A DNA stretch of 64,000 nucleotides from Lutibacter sp. A64 (GTDB taxonomy: Bacteria > Bacteroidota > Bacteroidia > Flavobacteriales > Flavobacteriaceae). Each line of letters starts with the position of its first letter. Positions within the stretch are counted from its first letter, which is position 1. The translations under genes were made by a program, and so were the position numbers. The stretch lies in assembly GCF_022429565.1 (NCBI RefSeq), contig NZ_CP092487.1, positions 2,436,001-2,500,000 of the forward strand, written 5' to 3'. Positions 20 through 7,402 of this stretch are shown one piece after another. Under the pieces are notes generated by a model. It saw only the letters and a list, made by a program, of their open reading frames with translations, had not been told where the DNA came from and did not search any database.

Positions 20-661
20 TTAATTTGCAAGCGGCTTATCAATCCAACCAATTACACGTTTTATGGCTTGTAAATAATTAATGTTTTCGGCACCTTCTAA
101 TTTACAATCCACAATGGTTTTTTTAATATCGTCTAACTCTGTAGATTCAGAATTTATAGTCACAATTTTGGCTCCATTAACCAATACATTTCCTACTTCA
201 CACAAGGTATTATTTACCATATACCCAAAGCGTTGTTTGTGCACACGTACTCCTTGTAAATCTGGATTTTCAGCAATCATTTCTAAAAATTCTTCTAATG
301 TATATGTATCTTTTGTAAGTTCAGGCATTGCTATCTGAAATGCAGGAAAAACGTCGTTTTCTAATACTTGTTTAGATATTGGAAATTCACCTTTCATTAA
401 AGGATTCCATTGCTCTAAACCATCTACGGTTTGCACATAGGTTTTAATATCCATTTTACCATCGCGTATTTTTGTATTATTAATATCGTTGGTTTTAGAT
501 AGAATATATATTTCTTCTGAAGTTCTTTCCCAAACTTTTTCTGGAATTGGTACTGATAAACGTGCCATATACTTTGCTTGTAAGTCAAAGTTTTGACCAA
601 ACGTTCTAAACTCGAAACGAGGTTTTGAAATTTCACCTATTTTCATTGCTGGTTTTGTCAT
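20..661 (-). CDS. Conserved protein, possibly CYTH-like fold, last gene of the phosphate operon
   Basis: 213 residues with no signal peptide or membrane segment, so cytoplasmic. I do not recognise a named family with certainty. The region at about residues 45-95 contains KIRDGKMDIK, GLEQW and MKGEFP, and the N-terminus has RFEFR; conserved basic and acidic residues spread on beta-strand-like segments recall the CYTH / triphosphate-tunnel superfamily, which acts on triphosphates and polyphosphate. That would fit its place 28 bp behind the SdiA-type lipoprotein at the end of a phosphate-uptake operon. The CYTH assignment is inference by eye only; the ORF itself is clear and co-directional with its neighbours. 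Confidence 0.75.
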   Translation of the reverse strand: MTKPAMKIGEISKPRFEFRTFGQNFDLQAKYMARLSVPIPEKVWERTSEEIYILSKTNDINNTKIRDGKMDIKTYVQTVDGLEQWNPLMKGEFPISKQVLENDVFPAFQIAMPELTKDTYTLEEFLEMIAENPDLQGVRVHKQRFGYMVNNTLCEVGNVLVNGAKIVTINSESTELDDIKKTIVDCKLEGAENINYLQAIKRVIGWIDKPLAN

Positions 662-689: not shown

Positions 690-1442
690 TTATTTTATTG
701 GTTTTTTAAACTTGTAGAGTTTCGAATTTGAATCACTTACTATATAGATAAAATCTTTAGTAACCACTATACCTTCGGCATTACTTACATTTATAGCATA
801 ACTTTCTATCAATGCTCCTTGTAAACTACATTTATTAACCGTTTTACTTTGATCGCTAACGATCCATAATACATTTAAATCTTTATCATGAAAAATACCT
901 GAATAATCTGATGCAAAATCTAAATTGTACGATTCTATAATTGAAAAATCGCTTCTTAATCGCATTAATAATCCTGGTTCTTTTTCATTAATAACAAATA
1001 AAGTGTTATCGTTTAAGTTATAAGCAATTCCTTCTAAACCACTGTTAGAATCGTTATTACTATAGATAACTTTATTTTTTTTATAAGTTTTGGCAGTTAA
1101 ATCATATTCAACAACTTCTTTGGTTCTTTCTTCTACTAATACTACTTTATTATTAGAAATTACTGAAATACCTTCAACATCATTTCCATCATATTTATAT
1201 TTTTTCAGTACTTCTCCAGTGGTAGATAATTCATAAATATTATTGGTATCATCACTAACAGTATACAAGGTTGAACCGGAAGCGTTAATTGCTAAACCTG
1301 AAGCTTCTACAACAGCAATTTTATCACTTGAAATTAACTCGAGTTTACCGTTGTTATTTTCTACAACATTGCCCTTATCACAAGCTAAAAAAGAGGTCAT
1401 AAAAACTATGGTAAAACTTAATATTTTACTTAAATGTATCAT
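690..1442 (-). CDS. SdiA-regulated-type beta-propeller lipoprotein
   Basis: The start is placed at the ATG at 1442, which gives a signal peptide beginning MIHLSKILSFTIVFM and ending in a lipobox (SFLAC), rather than at the in-frame ATG at 1514 that runs through an 11-bp hairpin. The mature 230-residue part has repeated strands such as GLAINASGSTLYTVSDD, VEGISVI, GIAYN and AEGIVV, the signature of the SdiA-regulated family, which forms a six-bladed propeller and is found exported in many Bacteroidota. The ligand is unknown. It sits between a lamin-tail lipoprotein and a cytoplasmic protein in the phosphate operon, so a surface or periplasmic role in phosphate-ester handling is a guess from context. 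Confidence 0.85.
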   Translation of the reverse strand: MIHLSKILSFTIVFMTSFLACDKGNVVENNNGKLELISSDKIAVVEASGLAINASGSTLYTVSDDTNNIYELSTTGEVLKKYKYDGNDVEGISVISNNKVVLVEERTKEVVEYDLTAKTYKKNKVIYSNNDSNSGLEGIAYNLNDNTLFVINEKEPGLLMRLRSDFSIIESYNLDFASDYSGIFHDKDLNVLWIVSDQSKTVNKCSLQGALIESYAINVSNAEGIVVTKDFIYIVSDSNSKLYKFKKPIK

Positions 1443-1451
1443 TTTAAAAGT

Positions 1452-1479
1452 ACTAGCTTGTGCAAAAACACAAGCTAGT
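1452..1479 (-). terminator. Perfect 11-bp hairpin between two lipoprotein genes (attenuator or weak terminator)
   Basis: The arms ACTAGCTTGTG (1452-1462) and CACAAGCTAGT (1469-1479) are exactly complementary with a six-base loop. On the minus strand the hairpin starts about 10 nt after the stop of the lamin-tail gene, is followed by a short run of T (ACTTTT), and ends 9 nt before the ATG of the next lipoprotein. It could terminate part of the transcripts, stabilise the upstream mRNA, or restrict initiation at the downstream start. Confidence 0.7.
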
Positions 1480-1489
1480 TTTTTAGTTG

Positions 1490-3085
1490 TTATTGAACTG
1501 TGTAAACATTCCACAATGTTGGATCGTCTTTAAAATCATCAGATTCGTCAGTATCTCCTCCACCTGGAGTGTTATCTAAAGACATTGCACCTGTATTTGA
1601 ATAATAATATTCTGCTGTATCTGTAGAAATACGCACATAGAATGACACTTTAGCTCCTGTTTCACTTAAAGATAATTCATCTCCATCTGTAACAACATCT
1701 TTTAAATTAATAGTTACACCGGTTTGTGTAAATGTATCATCATCTTCACCAGATACTTTATTAGCTTTTACATATTCTGGTTCATCACCAACAGCAAAAT
1801 AAACTCTAGCTTCTGTAATTTCTTCTGAACTTGCATATTCTAAAACAAGATTAATATCAGACCCTGGAATTGGGTTTGTTGGAAATGTTAAACTTGTTAA
1901 TGGCCCGTCTGTTGAAGTAATAGTTGTCTCTACAACTTCATCATAATTTACAGCTTCAACTGTATAAGTAGGCCAAGTTGTACCTAAATCGTGATTAAAA
2001 TCGCCACCATCTTCCAGTGGGTAATACGTTTTTGTTCCATCAACATATTCAACTCTAATATAATAATGAACTTCACCTTCTATATTAAGAGCAGGAACTA
2101 CAGCTTCCCAAGTATCACCATTTTGAGTCATTTCAATTTTAGTTTTATCATCAAAACCATTGTCTTCATCTTGTTGTTCGCCTGGGAATAAGTAATACAA
2201 TCTTAATTCATCAACTTGTTCTGGATACAATGGTGTAGCAGTAAACGTAACATTACCTCTATTACCATCTATTTCGCCCTCAAAACTTAACTCACTAAGA
2301 CCTCCAACAACTGAAAACTCTGCAGGTTCGTTAGTTCCGTTACTTGGGTAATACGATTTTAATCCTGTATTATCTGTTGCAACTACATAATATTTAACAA
2401 CTTCTCCAACATTTGCTTTAGGTACAGAAGTTTTGTATTCACCATCTACCAATGCCATATCTAGAGATTGTACGCTTTCACCAATAATAAGCACTAATTT
2501 TACTGAAGAAATACCATCGGCATCTGAAACACTTACAGCATAAACATCGGTAAATTCAGTAATAGAACTAGCATCTAAAAACGGTGCTGTATTTGCCACA
2601 GAACCATTTGAAGAATTTGGAGTTGGAGAACTAATTTTCCATTGGCCAGCACCATCAATTTCTCTTGCCCAAGTTAGCCCAACATTACTACTCATATCTG
2701 GTGTAACCGTATGATCTACAATTGTTCCATTAGGCTCAAATAAACCAACATCTTCTCCTCCAGAACTAATAGACTCTCCAGATTCGTTTGCATCAACAAA
2801 GTAAAAACCACCTGCTGGTATAATTGTTCCTGAAGGTATTTCATAACCACCTACTGTTGCTTTATCATTTAAAAAGTAACCAGAGATATCCATATCGGTT
2901 GTACCGCTATTGTAAACTTCAATCCAGTCTGGGTTATCTCCAACATCCTTAGACATAATTTCATTTAGTTTCAGCACACTACCTTCTACAATAGGCTCAT
3001 CTTTTGTCATTATTTCATCCTCTACACAACTAAAAGTAGTAGATAACATAATAATTGTTAGAACTATATATTTTAAATTTTTCAT
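1490..3085 (-). CDS. Lamin-tail-domain lipoprotein with three Ig-like modules
   Basis: 531 residues. Signal peptide MKNLKYIVLTIIMLSTTFSC with lipobox TTFSC, so a lipoprotein. Residues about 36-165 form a lamin tail domain (LNEIMSKDVGDNPDWIEVYN, then DISGYFLND, IPAGGFYFVDAN and a closing SPTPNSSNG), an Ig-like fold common in bacterial exported nucleases, phosphatases and surface proteins. Three diverged modules follow, each ending in a strand like VKYYVVATD, VHYYIRVEY or VSFYVRIST followed by a tyrosine pair. No catalytic domain is visible. It lies 24 bp behind the phosphate-selective porin, which suggests it works at the surface next to that porin, possibly as a binding partner; this is context only. 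Confidence 0.85.
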   Translation of the reverse strand: MKNLKYIVLTIIMLSTTFSCVEDEIMTKDEPIVEGSVLKLNEIMSKDVGDNPDWIEVYNSGTTDMDISGYFLNDKATVGGYEIPSGTIIPAGGFYFVDANESGESISSGGEDVGLFEPNGTIVDHTVTPDMSSNVGLTWAREIDGAGQWKISSPTPNSSNGSVANTAPFLDASSITEFTDVYAVSVSDADGISSVKLVLIIGESVQSLDMALVDGEYKTSVPKANVGEVVKYYVVATDNTGLKSYYPSNGTNEPAEFSVVGGLSELSFEGEIDGNRGNVTFTATPLYPEQVDELRLYYLFPGEQQDEDNGFDDKTKIEMTQNGDTWEAVVPALNIEGEVHYYIRVEYVDGTKTYYPLEDGGDFNHDLGTTWPTYTVEAVNYDEVVETTITSTDGPLTSLTFPTNPIPGSDINLVLEYASSEEITEARVYFAVGDEPEYVKANKVSGEDDDTFTQTGVTINLKDVVTDGDELSLSETGAKVSFYVRISTDTAEYYYSNTGAMSLDNTPGGGDTDESDDFKDDPTLWNVYTVQ

Positions 3086-3109: not shown

Positions 3110-4465
3110 TTAAAAATTAACTTCAAGTCTTAAAGAAACCTGACCATAATCGTCTCCTGCATCACCTTCTGCTTCTGTTACTAAAGACCAATCTTTAGTT
3201 GGATTTCCAGAAGCATCATGTCCTACATACAATTTACCTTTTCCATTTGCAAAACGGTCATGGTTATGATACACATAATTTAGAGCAACTTTTACATTAG
3301 GATTAACATAGTAATTTAAACCTGCTGAATATCCTTCAGCTGATCCTCCATAAATTGAAGCATCAAAATCGTTTAAATCAATAAAATCGTAACGTAAAGC
3401 TAATTCAATATCTCCTTTATCAGAACCGGGTGTAATTCTTGTAAATTCACCTTCTTTAGTATTGTAATTATGTTTACCACCTAATAATAAATAGGCTGCT
3501 TGTGCATAATAACCTTTAAAAGAAGCATCAATACCATCAATCATATTAACATTATGTTCTTTATATTCTCCTTGAAACATAACCCCTTTATATTTTCCTG
3601 CTAATTCAAACGTATAACCAAAAACATTATCTACTCCTGAAATATCATCAGTATCTAAGAATTTTTTTCTATTTACTACTGAATGAGAACGTGTACTAAG
3701 TCTATAAGCACCGCCTTCCCAATATGTTTTTGGAGTTCTATGTGTAGCGGCAACACCTAAATGTAGTAACTTTTCATTGTCATTAATAGGTGCCCAAACA
3801 GCTCTACCTGTCAATGAATATCCTTCATCTACACCATCATCTTTATTGGCATCTTTTGTTATAGTAACTTCTTCAGCATCACCAACTGTATTAAAGTGAA
3901 CACCTGCAACAAATAAAAACTTATTTGCATAAATATTTGTTTGAAAACCTAAATGACGAGAAGGGTCGAATGTTGAAGCTAAAGAACGCTCCATAAATAA
4001 TAGATATCTAGAAGTTGTAGTAGTTTCCATACCATAACCTTCTTTAAAATGCCCTGCTTTAATATCCCATTTTTTAGAATCTGCAGTATATTTAAGATAA
4101 GCATCTTTAATCTCTGTTCCAGAACTTTCAAAATCCAAATCTATTTCACCATACCAGTTTTTCCAAAACTCAGCTTTTAAAGCAAAACGCATTCTACGAA
4201 TTGTAATACCATTACCTAGCTCATTTAACGCATCATTAGAAAATATATACGCATCTAATTGAGCTCTGTTATCCATCCACATTTTATAATTACCATCTTC
4301 TGAAAACCACTTGATAAAACCATCTTGTGCCTCAGTATGTAGAGGAATTGCCTCTACTTCTTGTCCGTATTGGTTAATACGAATATTATCCTTTTTTTCT
4401 TGGGCATTTAACCCTATTCCAAATAGAATTAATGCTACAACTAATGTACTAACTTTACTTTTCAT
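3110..4465 (-). CDS. OprO/OprP-type phosphate or polyphosphate-selective porin
   Basis: 451 residues with signal peptide MKSKVSTLVVALILFGIGLNAQ. The mature part has the pattern of the phosphate-selective porin O/P family: WMDNRAQLDAYIF, ITIRRMRFALKAEFWKNWYGEIDLDF, VFGYTFELAGKYKGVMFQGEY and a C-terminal strand ending in phenylalanine (VSLRLEVNF), as needed for barrel insertion. Family members import phosphate or pyrophosphate across the outer membrane. It follows the PiT permease gene by 33 bp on the same strand, so outer- and inner-membrane steps of phosphate uptake are encoded together. Confidence 0.92.
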   Translation of the reverse strand: MKSKVSTLVVALILFGIGLNAQEKKDNIRINQYGQEVEAIPLHTEAQDGFIKWFSEDGNYKMWMDNRAQLDAYIFSNDALNELGNGITIRRMRFALKAEFWKNWYGEIDLDFESSGTEIKDAYLKYTADSKKWDIKAGHFKEGYGMETTTTSRYLLFMERSLASTFDPSRHLGFQTNIYANKFLFVAGVHFNTVGDAEEVTITKDANKDDGVDEGYSLTGRAVWAPINDNEKLLHLGVAATHRTPKTYWEGGAYRLSTRSHSVVNRKKFLDTDDISGVDNVFGYTFELAGKYKGVMFQGEYKEHNVNMIDGIDASFKGYYAQAAYLLLGGKHNYNTKEGEFTRITPGSDKGDIELALRYDFIDLNDFDASIYGGSAEGYSAGLNYYVNPNVKVALNYVYHNHDRFANGKGKLYVGHDASGNPTKDWSLVTEAEGDAGDDYGQVSLRLEVNF

Positions 4466-4498: not shown

Positions 4499-6247
4499 TT
4501 ATAGTTTACTGATTATTTCCGATAAATTATTTTCGCGTTTTAAATGCATTTTCTTTCGTAGTCTATGCCTATTAACCTCAACACTTTTTGTTGAAATATT
4601 TAAAATTGAAGCCATATCTTTTGAACTTAAATTTAAGCGTACTAAAGCACACAAATGCTGTTCGTTTTCGGTTAAATTTGGATACCTATTTAACAATCTG
4701 AAATAAAAATCTCTATTTAATTCGTTGATATAAATATTAAAACGCTGACGATCTTTATCAATACTTAAATTTTCAACAATTAATTTTTTTAAGTTTGAAA
4801 GCTCTTCTTGATTGGTATCAGATTTATTAATTATTGCATCAATTTTAGTTCGTAACTTTTCTAAAAAACGATTCTTTTGAATAATACTTAAAGCAATATT
4901 CATTTGCTCTTTTCTTTTAAATTCAATTTCTTTTTCAAGCTCTGCATTTTCCGAATTAACTTTGGTTAATTCTGTCTTTAAAAAGGCCTCTTGGGCTTTA
5001 TACTTTCTAACAATATCTGTAGACTCCTCGTCTTTAGAATGTAATTTATCGTTTGTTAATTTTAATACTAAAACAATTATTACAACTATTAGTATTACAA
5101 TTATGCCATATAACAAAGGTTGAAATAAGTTAATATTTAAAGTAGTTTCCGATAAAGTTGGTAAATTATTAAGATTGGTAGTTACAGATGTTAAAGCTGT
5201 ATTTGTTTCATTAAACACTTCTAGTTTAAATACATTATCCATAAAAAACAACGACATAAAAGAAACAAAACCAGCAATTATTGGTGTAGTAACCCAACCT
5301 AATGAAATTCTACCCAATATATTAAATTTAATACCTCTACCACCTTTTAATAAACCAACCCCCATAATTGCACCAACAATGGCCTGCGAACTTGAAACCG
5401 GCACCAATGGTATTGCTGGTAAGCCAATACTTTGTATCGCATTTGATAAAGAAGAGGATGAAAAAATAAACAATACCATAGCATGTGCTAATACTATAAC
5501 CAAAGCAGCTTCTGCAGATAATTTCATTAATTCGTTACCCACAGTCATCATAACTTTTTTTGAATAAGTTGCTATACCTACGGCAATAGAAATACCACCC
5601 ACTAAAAATAATAATTGAACACCATCTAAGGCAAAAAATCCAAAGTCTAAATAAAGATCAGGTACAGAAGGTATAAATACACCTACAACATTTGCTACAT
5701 TATTTGCTCCCAAACTATAAGCACCAAAAGCACCTATTATTAAAAGTGCATATTTTAAATAAGCATCTAATTTTATGAGATGAATTTGACTTCTTTCAAG
5801 AAAGAATTTCAACAATAAATACAATAAAATTGCAAAAATAGCTCCCAAAATTGGCCCTGCTACCCAAGTACTAACAATTCTACCTAAAACAGTAATATCT
5901 GTTGTATTCCCAGAATAAAAATTCCAACCAATAATTGCACCAATAATTGCTTGTGACGTAGATACAGGTAATTTTAAACGAGTCATCCAAAAAACTGTAA
6001 CACCTGCACAAAGAGCAACAGTAAAAGCACCACCTATAGCATTTACAGATCCTAATTTACCAAGTGTATCCGATGCACCAGCTCCCTGTAATACAGCCCC
6101 TAAAATAACGAAAATAGAAGCAATAATAACAGCTACACTAAATTTCACCATTTTAGATCCTACTGCAGATCCAAATATATTAGCTGCATCGTTGGCTCCT
6201 AAAGACCAACCTAAAAATAAACCACTTGATAAAAAGAATAAAAACAT
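4499..6247 (-). CDS. PiT-type phosphate permease fused to coiled coil and LuxR-type HTH
   Basis: 582 residues. Residues 1-336 are a complete PiT permease: the two inverted-repeat signatures GANDAANIFG (17-26) and GANNVANVVG (180-189), and the paired PVSTSQAIIG (94-103) and PVSSSQAIVG (283-292). Then come a polar loop (about 337-375), an extra transmembrane helix (376-396), a long charged coiled coil (about 412-500) and a helix-turn-helix at 524-582 (LTENEQHLCALVRLNL, DMASILNISTKSVEVNRHRL). The HTH is the type that ends many Bacteroidota sensor regulators. The reading frame is continuous, so this is a real fusion rather than an overlap. PiT proteins carry phosphate with H+ or Na+; a built-in DNA-binding tail suggests a membrane-tethered regulator (transceptor). 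The gene lies 14 bp after the DUF47 gene. Confidence 0.92.
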   Translation of the reverse strand: MFLFFLSSGLFLGWSLGANDAANIFGSAVGSKMVKFSVAVIIASIFVILGAVLQGAGASDTLGKLGSVNAIGGAFTVALCAGVTVFWMTRLKLPVSTSQAIIGAIIGWNFYSGNTTDITVLGRIVSTWVAGPILGAIFAILLYLLLKFFLERSQIHLIKLDAYLKYALLIIGAFGAYSLGANNVANVVGVFIPSVPDLYLDFGFFALDGVQLLFLVGGISIAVGIATYSKKVMMTVGNELMKLSAEAALVIVLAHAMVLFIFSSSSLSNAIQSIGLPAIPLVPVSSSQAIVGAIMGVGLLKGGRGIKFNILGRISLGWVTTPIIAGFVSFMSLFFMDNVFKLEVFNETNTALTSVTTNLNNLPTLSETTLNINLFQPLLYGIIVILIVVIIVLVLKLTNDKLHSKDEESTDIVRKYKAQEAFLKTELTKVNSENAELEKEIEFKRKEQMNIALSIIQKNRFLEKLRTKIDAIINKSDTNQEELSNLKKLIVENLSIDKDRQRFNIYINELNRDFYFRLLNRYPNLTENEQHLCALVRLNLSSKDMASILNISTKSVEVNRHRLRKKMHLKRENNLSEIISKL

Positions 6248-6261
6248 AGGATGTTGTTTTA

Positions 6262-6912
6262 TTACATTTTTATTTTTATAACTAACGAAGAAAGCAGTTT
6301 AGCAACTACTTTTGATGCTTCGGCAACCTGCTCTACATGTAATGTAAAATAACGTAAATGTATTTTTTCACTTAACTTTAAAAAAGGCATGTCTTTAAAC
6401 AATGTTCTTTTTATTTTGGTTGCTAATTTTTCAGTTTCACGTTCGTAAAAAATTACTTTTTGTAACTTATCTTTTACTAAATTAGGTGCCGTAAAAAAAA
6501 CTCTTGCTGCTGGTATTACATTTTCAGCAGACTTTACAGATAAAGAAACCAACCTTGAGAAATCATTTTTTATATCTTCTGGAAAATATGGATCTTCTAC
6601 ATCAAACTGACTTAAATTATCTTTTATCTTATCTATAATATCATCCGTTTTTTCTAATAAACTTAAAATATCACTCGAATAATTAGGCATTAAAGAATGT
6701 ACATAAAAATCATTTTCAATCTTTCTAATTATTGCATCAGCAGATTCTTCCTGTTTATTAACTTTATCTAAATTGTTTTCAAACTCAGAAAGATTCCCTT
6801 CTAAATAATTATTGATACCTTCTTTAAAGTTTAATATCCCTAACTCAACAGTATCAAAATATTCATCAATATTTAGAATAACATTTTTTGAAGTTTTAAA
6901 TATTCTAATCAT
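6262..6912 (-). CDS. PhoU-like DUF47 protein, PiT accessory factor
   Basis: 216 residues, almost all helical and rich in charged residues, soluble. It matches the DUF47 / TIGR00153 family (distant PhoU relatives): an early FDTVELGILNFKEGINNYLEG segment, the E-E-x-A-D-x-I-x-R-K-I-E motif (about 53-64) and a second three-helix bundle ending VEQVAEASKVVAKLLSSL. Such proteins are nearly always encoded beside PiT permeases and are thought to control their activity. Here it is the first gene of the minus-strand phosphate operon, 14 bp before the permease-HTH fusion. It starts at ATG 6912 behind a TAACTTTG promoter element and a palindromic operator. Confidence 0.93.
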   Translation of the reverse strand: MIRIFKTSKNVILNIDEYFDTVELGILNFKEGINNYLEGNLSEFENNLDKVNKQEESADAIIRKIENDFYVHSLMPNYSSDILSLLEKTDDIIDKIKDNLSQFDVEDPYFPEDIKNDFSRLVSLSVKSAENVIPAARVFFTAPNLVKDKLQKVIFYERETEKLATKIKRTLFKDMPFLKLSEKIHLRYFTLHVEQVAEASKVVAKLLSSLVIKIKM

Positions 6913-6930
6913 AATTCAAAATCTTTACAT

Positions 6931-6938
6931 CAAAGTTA
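6931..6938 (-). promoter_or_regulatory. -7 promoter element of the phosphate operon
   Basis: Minus-strand TAACTTTG matches the Bacteroidota TAnnTTTG element, 19 nt before the DUF47 start codon. No TTG is found at the expected -33 spacing, which suggests activator dependence; the palindrome at 6959-6976 sits where a class II activator would bind. Confidence 0.45.
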
Positions 6939-6958
6939 AATATACATTCAAGTATTAA

Positions 6959-6976
6959 AAGTGACATATGTCACTT
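6959..6976. promoter_or_regulatory. 18-bp perfect palindrome, CRP/FNR-like operator
   Basis: AAGTGACATATGTCACTT is a perfect palindrome. Its centre is about 42 bp upstream of the transcription start inferred from the TAACTTTG element, the classic position for a CRP/FNR-family activator. The TGAC-N4-GTCA core recurs at 12841-12850. Which regulator binds is not shown by the sequence. Confidence 0.55.
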
Positions 6977-7402
6977 ATTAGAGTTCACTTTAAAAAATGT
7001 AGGTTATTTAAAATTATATACTACTAAAAATAAACAAATTAAAACACGTGTGTAGTGTTTATAATAAATTATAATAGCCTTATGTAGTGTTTTTTTATGG
7101 TTTTATTATTTTTTATATATGAAAATATCCTACAGATTTAAGATCAAAATTAAAAGAAATAACTCCCAAAAAAACCCTAACAGACAATGATTACATAAAA
7201 TTAACACTTTAAAAAAAGAAGTTCTTAACCACATTTTACAGTTTAATAATAAAAATAAACTAAAAAATTGATACTAAGAAACTTAAGAGATATTTTTAAG
7301 TTTGAAGTTTAAATAGCAGTTTTAAAAATATTTTGCATTTCATTATTAACAATATGTTAAGCTACCATCATCTTTAATCTACTTAGCCTCTACTTAATAA
7401 AC

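Follow-up and report, generated by a model that had tools for sequence, protein, structure and literature searches.

Can a phosphate permease carry its own DNA-binding output domain, and would such a protein regulate the genes encoded with it? We addressed this question for a gene in a 64,000-nucleotide stretch of the Lutibacter sp. A64 genome (contig NZ_CP092487.1, positions 2,436,001 to 2,500,000), referred to here as the window and numbered from its first letter. An earlier note on this DNA had described, in one uninterrupted frame, an inorganic phosphate transporter (PiT) permease with both pairs of signature motifs, an extra helix, a coiled coil and a LuxR-type helix-turn-helix (HTH) of the class used by Bacteroidota sensor regulators, encoded together with a DUF47 partner and a porin. 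The frame stands as described: the open reading frame (ORF) at 4499-6247 on the reverse strand starts with ATG, has no internal stops and encodes 582 residues that match both the PHO4 and GerE profiles. In this single chain an intact PiT (PHO4) permease is followed by a variable loop, an extra transmembrane (TM) helix, a coiled coil and a LuxR/GerE-type HTH. Profiles, an AlphaFold2 (AF2) model and motif columns thus place a membrane domain and a DNA-binding domain in one polypeptide, the architecture of a transmembrane regulator. Since the fusion recurs across many separate assemblies it is neither chance nor an assembly accident, and an assembly error or frameshift as its source was ruled out. 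Weak Pfam matches, to PsbH, sigma-70 region 4 and others, were rejected as better descriptions of the protein.

The N-terminal part is a PiT permease by profile, by both repeat motifs and by fold. PF01384 (PHO4) matched residues 17-329 (E 4e-64, 217 bits, cut-off 33.7), and PHO4 was found at E<=0.001 in all 33 aligned fused proteins, that of the window included. The signature motifs named in the earlier note are all present (GAND 17-20, PVSTSQA 94-100, GANN 180-183 and PVSSSQA 283-289). We compared the motif columns of 34 fused rows with those of 49 unfused relatives. D20, N23, Q99, N182, N183, N186 and Q288 are invariant in 34/34 fused rows; among the unfused rows D20 is kept in 48 and Q288 in 47, and the remaining motif residues in all 49. 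The AF2 model of the whole protein (mean predicted local distance difference test, pLDDT, of 75.9; predicted TM-score, pTM, of 0.59) has a helical permease part, a single unbroken helix at residues 375-474 that comprises the extra TM and the coiled coil, and shorter helices beyond 474 up to the C-terminus, with those of the HTH at 512-581. When the model was compared with the PDB using Foldseek, the sole matches at E<=0.001 were both chains of the Na+/phosphate transporter TmPiT (6l85, E 4e-11 and 9e-11). TmPiT shares the fold of the permease part but is a 402-residue chain without such a tail, and it has GAND and TH at the second-repeat positions where this PiT group has GANN and SQ. Full-length FixJ (5xt2, E 0.29, probability 0.99) and StyR (1yio, E 0.31, probability 1.00) were matched with weak E values.

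The C-terminus gave a match to GerE (PF00196) at residues 524-571, with an E value of 1e-4 and a score of 22.2 bits against a curated cut-off of 23.5; the HTH claimed in the earlier note is therefore found by E value and falls short by score. Orthologues lie on both sides of the cut-off (30.7 bits in L046, 22.9 in L053), and GerE was found at E<=0.001 in 31 of the 33 aligned fused proteins, again including the window, the other two (L059 and L062) being cut by contig ends before the HTH. The recognition-helix residues, whose loss across orthologues would by the earlier note have spoken against its reading, form a near-invariant stretch. Taken with the FixJ and StyR matches, the alignment identifies an HTH fold with a conserved recognition helix. 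Across 31 proteins, mean pairwise identity is 0.71 in the permease, 0.65 in the HTH (516-582) and 0.81 in the HTH core (526-566); it is 0.41 in the coiled coil (0.61 in its core) and 0.20 in the loop plus TM.

Rates of non-synonymous (dN) and synonymous (dS) substitution were computed by Nei-Gojobori. Against L115 (G420), whose protein is 96% identical to that of the window, the HTH has dN 0 and dS 0.48 and the permease dN 0.016 and dS 0.166; against L034 the values are 0.025 and 0.91 for the HTH and 0.069 and 0.757 for the permease. Eight comparisons give a defined HTH dS, and in 6 of them the dN/dS of the HTH lies below the permease ratio; the comparison with L040 has no defined value, and several dS values are near saturation. 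These ratios suggest that the HTH is under purifying selection and about as constrained as the permease. A chance HTH was rejected on selection, identity and the recurrence of the GerE match.

On which side of the membrane would the HTH lie? The 24-25 residues C-terminal of the extra TM hold 5-11 lysines and arginines in 33/33 proteins, while the loop before it, 23-74 residues long among orthologues, has none in the protein of the window and between 1 and 17 in the remaining fused proteins. PiT proteins have their C-terminus outside. The basic stretch after one further TM would therefore place the HTH in the cytoplasm.

The tail itself is familiar. In a class sample of 395 genomes, 152 match the fusion protein at E<=1e-10, and among the matches listed nearly always via the tail, at 24-47% identity. 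Ten tail carriers were scanned with Pfam, nine of which contain tetratricopeptide (TPR) repeats and one Y_Y_Y. TM-coiled coil-HTH is a stock output module of Bacteroidota TPR/propeller sensors; the class assigned to the HTH in the earlier note is confirmed, and the extra helix is present as it said, as the ordinary TM helix of this known module. We counted hydrophobic segments in 67 non-PiT carriers, made up of 27 class-sample loci and 40 further places hand-picked from its match list. All 67 have 0-2 segments (0 in 6, 1 in 35, 2 in 26), the count being a minimum for the 20 whose frames reach the 5' end of their stretch, and the window protein has seven by the same coarse measure. A permease as the input of the module is therefore new here. 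The Bacteroidota TPR/Y_Y_Y-LuxR proteins share the homologous TM-coiled coil-HTH tail and have a TPR or Y_Y_Y input, whereas the fusion set a PHO4 permease where the TPR or propeller-type part usually sits. The window protein also gave a weak match to the NCBIfam BT3442 family.

Next, we examined the distribution of the fusion. A contig scan that covered 84,980 species by one genome apiece returned 159 stretches encoding a relative, from which the best 80 were retained. These comprise 48 unfused loci and 32 fused ones; 30 of the latter reach the HTH, and contig ends truncate the other two (L059 and L062). The search for PiT plus LuxR-HTH architectures proposed in the earlier note thus found 32 fused loci beyond the window. 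Their hosts, mostly metagenome-assembled genomes, include members of Lutibacter, Mariniflexile, Flavobacteriaceae, Bacteroidales, Saprospiraceae, Melioribacteraceae and Ignavibacteria/Chlorobiota. Matches at E<=1e-60 that span permease and tail were found in 11 of 38 genomes of the genus, with one further match, in G430, that ends at residue 387 at a contig end. In the family they were found in 5 of 299 genomes, two of them of the same genus (the Lutibacter sp. A64 genome included). Among the matches listed for the class sample, where at most three candidates were scored per genome, the PiT part is covered in the A64 genome and G172, both fused, and in G141, which is untailed. With the permease part as query, 13 genomes of a phylum sample (395 genomes) match. 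The A64 frame measures 599 residues there, and the other 12 matches, three of 391-404 and nine of 492-528 residues, are all shorter than complete fused proteins, judged by length. The distribution is patchy.

Both trees that we built are consistent with a single origin. Labelling the fused rows, 34 of the 83 PiT domains in the first tree, takes 2 changes where shuffled labels take 26.5 on average; the untailed L063 and L064 lie among these rows without a resolved position. The second tree compares the tails of 32 fused proteins with 67 others, and a branch with support of 91 sets all the fused tails apart. The trees were quick searches with SH-aLRT (approximate likelihood-ratio test) support only, and the tail tree carried a warning of long branches among the non-fused tails. 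One fusion event would be the simplest reading that fits both trees, although a loss or a fork that the trees do not resolve may play a part.

Two other forms of PiT were seen among the relatives. A Chlorobiota PiT of 455 residues (L088:5962-7326) has an extra hydrophobic segment and stops shortly after it; no match to the tail was found in that locus, and the protein is perhaps a truncated or split relative. Eleven PiT relatives (L069, L073, L085, L086, L091, L094, L096, L100, L108, L110 and L113), from hosts that include Cyanobacteria, SAR324, Krumholzibacteria, Zixibacteria and Spirochaetes, have a different C-terminal extension of ~140-170 residues and constitute a second kind of PiT fusion; the four extensions scanned (L069, L073, L100 and L113) have no Pfam match.

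We then turned to the neighbouring genes. The fusion gene sits in a conserved phosphate/polyphosphate-flavoured island of DUF47, PiT::HTH, porin O/P, lamin-tail-domain (LTD), SdiA-regulated, triphosphate tunnel metalloenzyme (TTM)-fold, CYTH and SLC13 proteins (Table 1). The DUF47 gene lies upstream of the fusion in 32/32 fused loci, and the Porin_O_P and LTD genes follow it in 24/32, the other 8 loci ending within ~0.65 kb of the fusion; both partners named in the earlier note are thereby seen well beyond this genome. DUF47 and Porin_O_P alongside PHO4 are classic phosphate company. The SdiA-regulated protein is present in 19 of the 22 fused loci that extend to the gene for the 213-residue protein (it is missing in L035, L036 and L040). 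Past the window start, CYTH is present in 18 of the 22, the remaining four ending in or just after the 213-residue gene, and the SLC13-type symporter in 14 of the 18, the remaining four ending soon after CYTH. Some loci have the island with an untailed PiT (L064, L067 and L068; L075 in part), and therefore either the island predates the fusion or the tail has been lost in these loci.

The 213-residue protein gave no significant match in Pfam, NCBIfam or PDB sequences. Its model has 46 Foldseek matches at E<=0.001, mostly to CYTH/TTM proteins and RNA triphosphatases (2gfg, 7z67, 5a64 and 7nsa among them, best E 3e-6) and also to Mediator Med18/20 chains, with TM-scores by query length of ~0.3-0.5. 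A TTM (CYTH-like) fold is predicted for it, placed by fold alone. The family is strongly conserved, and several Bacteroidales-type loci have two adjacent copies. Just past the window start, the A64 genome encodes a CYTH protein, an SLC13-type symporter and a 488-residue protein without a Pfam match (L133:6287-9915).

We searched the DNA upstream of the DUF47 gene for candidate operators. The word AAACACTACA occurs there twice on the coding strand, where the chance expectation for the whole window is 0.27 and at least two copies were found in 2 of 100 shuffles. Among relatives, CACTACA occurs 17 times against 0.4 expected, in 8 of 14 flavobacterial upstream regions, and CTCTACA 7 times against 0.3 expected, in 6 of 10 of the Bacteroidales/Ignavibacteria type. 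A 12-column matrix applied to 27 upstream regions found 53 sites at >=8 bits, with none on the reverse strand and 6.4 in Markov shuffles, and 62 sites at >=6.5 bits, with 2 on the reverse strand and 11.3 in shuffles. For L050, L057 and L061 there was no upstream DNA; L045, with a short upstream region, and L059 and L062, whose genes are partial, were excluded from these counts and from the held-out ones, and five untailed loci were scored apart from the fused ones. A script chose the start codons that bound the regions; for L048, L062, L058 and L124 it seems to have picked one too far upstream, which shifts their positions relative to the ATG.

Five held-out loci (L005, L123, L124, L125 and L127) contain 14 sites at >=7.5 bits, none on the reverse strand, where 1.7 were expected; this number was reached in 0 of 1000 simulations. 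L115, L126 and L128, with upstream regions 97-100% identical to training ones, were kept out of that set. The 37 successive spacings between sites (21 bp three times, 31-32 bp ten times, 52-56 bp thirteen times, 85-87 bp five times and elsewhere six times) recur near 2, 3, 5 and 8 helical turns and are common to relatives, held-out loci included. In the 4.03-Mb genome the pair pattern, of which two versions were tried, occurs once, and reversed controls gave 0. A PhoB phosphate-box reading of the repeats was rejected, since the repeats of a PhoB box have a spacing of 11 bp.

The earlier note had proposed 6913-7010 as the target DNA. The candidate operator array, at 7051-7092, falls outside this stretch, which holds instead a CRP/FNR-like palindrome (6959-6976) and a -7-like box. 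A gapped-palindrome search found TGAT-N4-ATCA in 13/30 upstream regions. The looser TGA-N6-TCA occurs between -59 and -74 in 16/16 Flavobacteriaceae-type regions from the first set, and not in held-out L127. We did not take it as the site of the fusion HTH because, apart from two copies in L060 at other positions, it is absent from Bacteroidales/Ignavibacteria-type regions, where a near-identical HTH is present. The box TAACTTTG matches the Bacteroidota -7 consensus TAnnTTTG. If it sets the start site, then the palindrome would be centred near -41, where CRP/FNR-type activators sit. A scan for sigma-70 promoters was no better than shuffles (51 vs 49.6).

Table 1 Features of the fusion gene, its neighbours and the upstream DNA, in window coordinates.
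Feature	Position	Strand	Evidence
PiT::HTH fusion gene, 582 aa	4499..6247	-	ORF, Pfam profiles, alignment, AF2 model
PiT permease domain, residues 1-345, signature motifs intact	5213..6247	-	PHO4 E 4e-64; Foldseek 6l85 E 4e-11; motif columns
Predicted periplasmic loop, residues 346-372, 0 K/R	5132..5212	-	motif/charge columns; pLDDT<50 at 347-368
Extra transmembrane helix, residues 373-396	5060..5131	-	equivalent to the TM preceding the homologous tail in other proteins
Predicted cytoplasmic coiled coil and linker, residues 397-511	4715..5059	-	conserved core around 447-465
LuxR/GerE-type HTH, residues 512-582	4502..4714	-	GerE match 524-571; recognition-helix stretch near-invariant
DUF47/PhoU-like partner, first operon gene	6262..6912	-	PF01865 70 bits, cut-off 24.4
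Candidate operator repeat 1, AAACACTACA	7083..7092	-	repeat searches, matrix
Candidate operator repeat 2, AAACACTACA, 32 bp from repeat 1	7051..7060	-	repeat searches, matrix
18-bp perfect palindrome, TGA-N6-TCA type, CRP/FNR-like by eye	6959..6976	.	palindrome search, alignments
-7-like box TAACTTTG	6931..6938	-	sequence; similar words similarly placed in upstream alignments
Porin_O_P outer-membrane porin	3110..4465	-	PF07396 E 3e-42
LTD protein	1490..3085	-	PF00932 E 2e-14
SdiA-regulated/phytase-like protein	690..1514	-	PF06977 E 1e-29, PF13449 E 1e-9
213-aa protein, TTM (CYTH-like) fold predicted	20..661	-	model pLDDT 89.5; Foldseek

We propose, as the reading that we somewhat favour, that the protein acts as a transceptor, a membrane-tethered, self-regulating one-component regulator with the intact PiT permease as its sensor. 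Its motif residues and its HTH are both conserved, the gene is kept with DUF47 and the porin, and a repeat array lies upstream. The C-terminus of the permease itself would be periplasmic, and the extra TM would bring the tail to the cytoplasmic side. A change in permease conformation between the empty and phosphate-loaded states, perhaps modulated by DUF47, could then alter the pairing or register of the coiled coil and be relayed through loop, TM and coiled coil to the HTHs. Paired HTHs might bind the AAACACTACA array cooperatively, pulling the promoter to the membrane, and expression of the entire phosphate/polyphosphate island would follow. With low confidence, we suggest that the response is activation under substrate scarcity, which is favoured by the position of the array upstream of the promoter, the usual side for activator binding. 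We offer more tentatively the specific version in which a working ion-coupled phosphate permease would be the transcription factor of its own operon, its coiled coil and HTH reading out substrate occupancy and the HTH clamping helically phased same-strand repeats at the inner membrane. If this were true, uptake, porin and polyphosphate enzymes would be set by the transporter without a kinase, Pst or PhoB.

Several observations weigh against this proposal. At the protein level, the GerE score of the window protein is 1.3 bits below the cut-off, the HTH dN/dS exceeds the permease ratio in 2 of the 8 comparisons (L035 and L036), and basic residues outnumber acidic ones in the loop of 6/33 proteins (L039, L049, L053, L056, L060 and L071), that of L071 (17 K/R in 74 residues) being as basic as its post-TM stretch (5 in 25). 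The genome also encodes Pst-PhoU, a Na/Pi cotransporter and a second PiT elsewhere; this second phosphate locus (L134:202-8748) comprises PstS, PstC, PstA, PstB, PhoU, the cotransporter and a 750-residue PiT, with PstC and PstA assigned by eye. By analogy, the CbrA case, as told in passages of PMC8871633, cautions against assuming that the fused transporter does the sensing.

Further points concern the DNA. The repeat matrix was seeded from words of the same upstream regions, the spacings are not independent because they were drawn from related loci, and held-out L123 and L125 come from one genome. Three of the 27 training regions (L035, L037 and L038) have no site, two of the five untailed operons hold sites (L063, 6.7 and 8.0 bits; L064, 10.2 bits), and L115, outside the held-out count, has one on the reverse strand. 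When the matrix was trained on one group and scored on the other (14 and 12 of the 27 regions), transfer was weaker: 19 sites against 6.0 in the 12 test regions and 12 against 4.8 in the 14 at 6.5 bits, where the highest of 100 shuffles gave 11 and 10, and 8 against 2.8 and 8 against 2.2 at 8 bits, where the highest gave 9 and 7. The second direction also returned 2 reverse-strand sites and 3 in 13 coding stretches.

Some of these data suit other explanations. The permease may be only an anchor or carrier, with the HTH controlled otherwise, for example by DUF47 or by a cytoplasmic signal acting on the coiled coil. The DUF47 gene upstream of every fused locus is consistent with this, as is a CrbS/CbrA chimera in which, according to passages of PMC8871633, transport was unnecessary for signal transduction. 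However, the permease motif residues are invariant in the fused proteins, and the usual partners of the tail are TPR or Y_Y_Y parts rather than permeases; we consider an anchor role unlikely. It is less likely again that the fusion regulates targets elsewhere and that another factor binds the array upstream of the island. The modest transfer of the motif across groups and the one good site of untailed operon L064 point that way, whereas the array recurs at shared spacings before fused operons, held-out ones included, and the genome has the pair pattern only once.

The permease could also move another oxyanion (sulfate, arsenate or condensed phosphate), which the island would then serve. GANN and SQ in place of the GAND and TH of 6l85 would agree with this, as would the TTM-fold protein, CYTH protein and SLC13-type symporter of the island and a weak match to the NCBIfam sulfate permease model SulfPermCysPBac (NF053884). 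That match, at 75.6 bits, is far below the equivalog cut-off of 400, so that a sulfate permease identity was rejected, and the 217 bits of PHO4 and the DUF47 and Porin_O_P neighbours speak for phosphate; another substrate is improbable. That the HTH is a functionless vestige is barely credible: its GerE score, below the cut-off, points that way, but its core is more conserved than the permease (0.81 vs 0.71) and its dN/dS is low.

We compared the proposed transceptor to known systems. DadR, HcdR and CadR of Eggerthella lenta join a polytopic membrane domain and a C-terminal LuxR-type HTH in one chain, as described in parts of PMC9734109. Deletions there revealed substrate-induced activation, and the authors suggested autoregulation of DadR; by analogy, these 12-TM LuxRs indicate that such a build can work. 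The low-identity N-terminal domain of the Coriobacteriia LuxRs is described as having 10-12 TM, and neither 'transporter' nor 'MFS' appears in the main text of that paper, whereas here a recognisable intact PiT is accompanied by a DUF47 partner, a joining TM and a long coiled coil. The SLC5/STAC histidine kinases CbrA and CrbS likewise fuse a transporter domain to a signalling output, but theirs is a kinase that acts via a response regulator, and the transporter family is unrelated to PiT (passages of PMC8871633). Work cited in the same passages has also linked histidine transport by CbrA to its activation. Transmembrane transcription regulators, which parts of the survey PMC10269533 describe as enriched in Bacteroidia and Coriobacteriia, share one-component action from the membrane; 'PHO4', 'LuxR' and 'GerE' do not occur in its main text. 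Among the titles and abstracts listed from the open-licence literature, none describes a PiT-HTH fusion, which does not prove its absence. Membrane-tethered LuxR-type one-component regulators are known, and an intact PiT permease as their input is apparently new. The earlier interpretation is supported in part, by the architecture and its conservation, selection on the HTH, the extra TM with its basic stretch, the operon context and a candidate operator in the operon's own upstream DNA; the likeliest target lies outside the stretch it named, and the extra helix is the usual TM of a known module.

Whether the working cycle of a transporter can serve as a transcriptional signal is a long-standing question that is hard to approach in CbrA or Pst-PhoU-PhoR. 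A fusion in one gene, with intact motifs, an array at recurring spacings and untailed sister operons as natural controls, makes this question directly testable. The finding marks a conserved phosphate/polyphosphate island and suggests that the Bacteroidota TM-coiled coil-LuxR module can accept a permease as input. Through this fusion, phosphate status may pass straight from the transporter to the genes for its own production.

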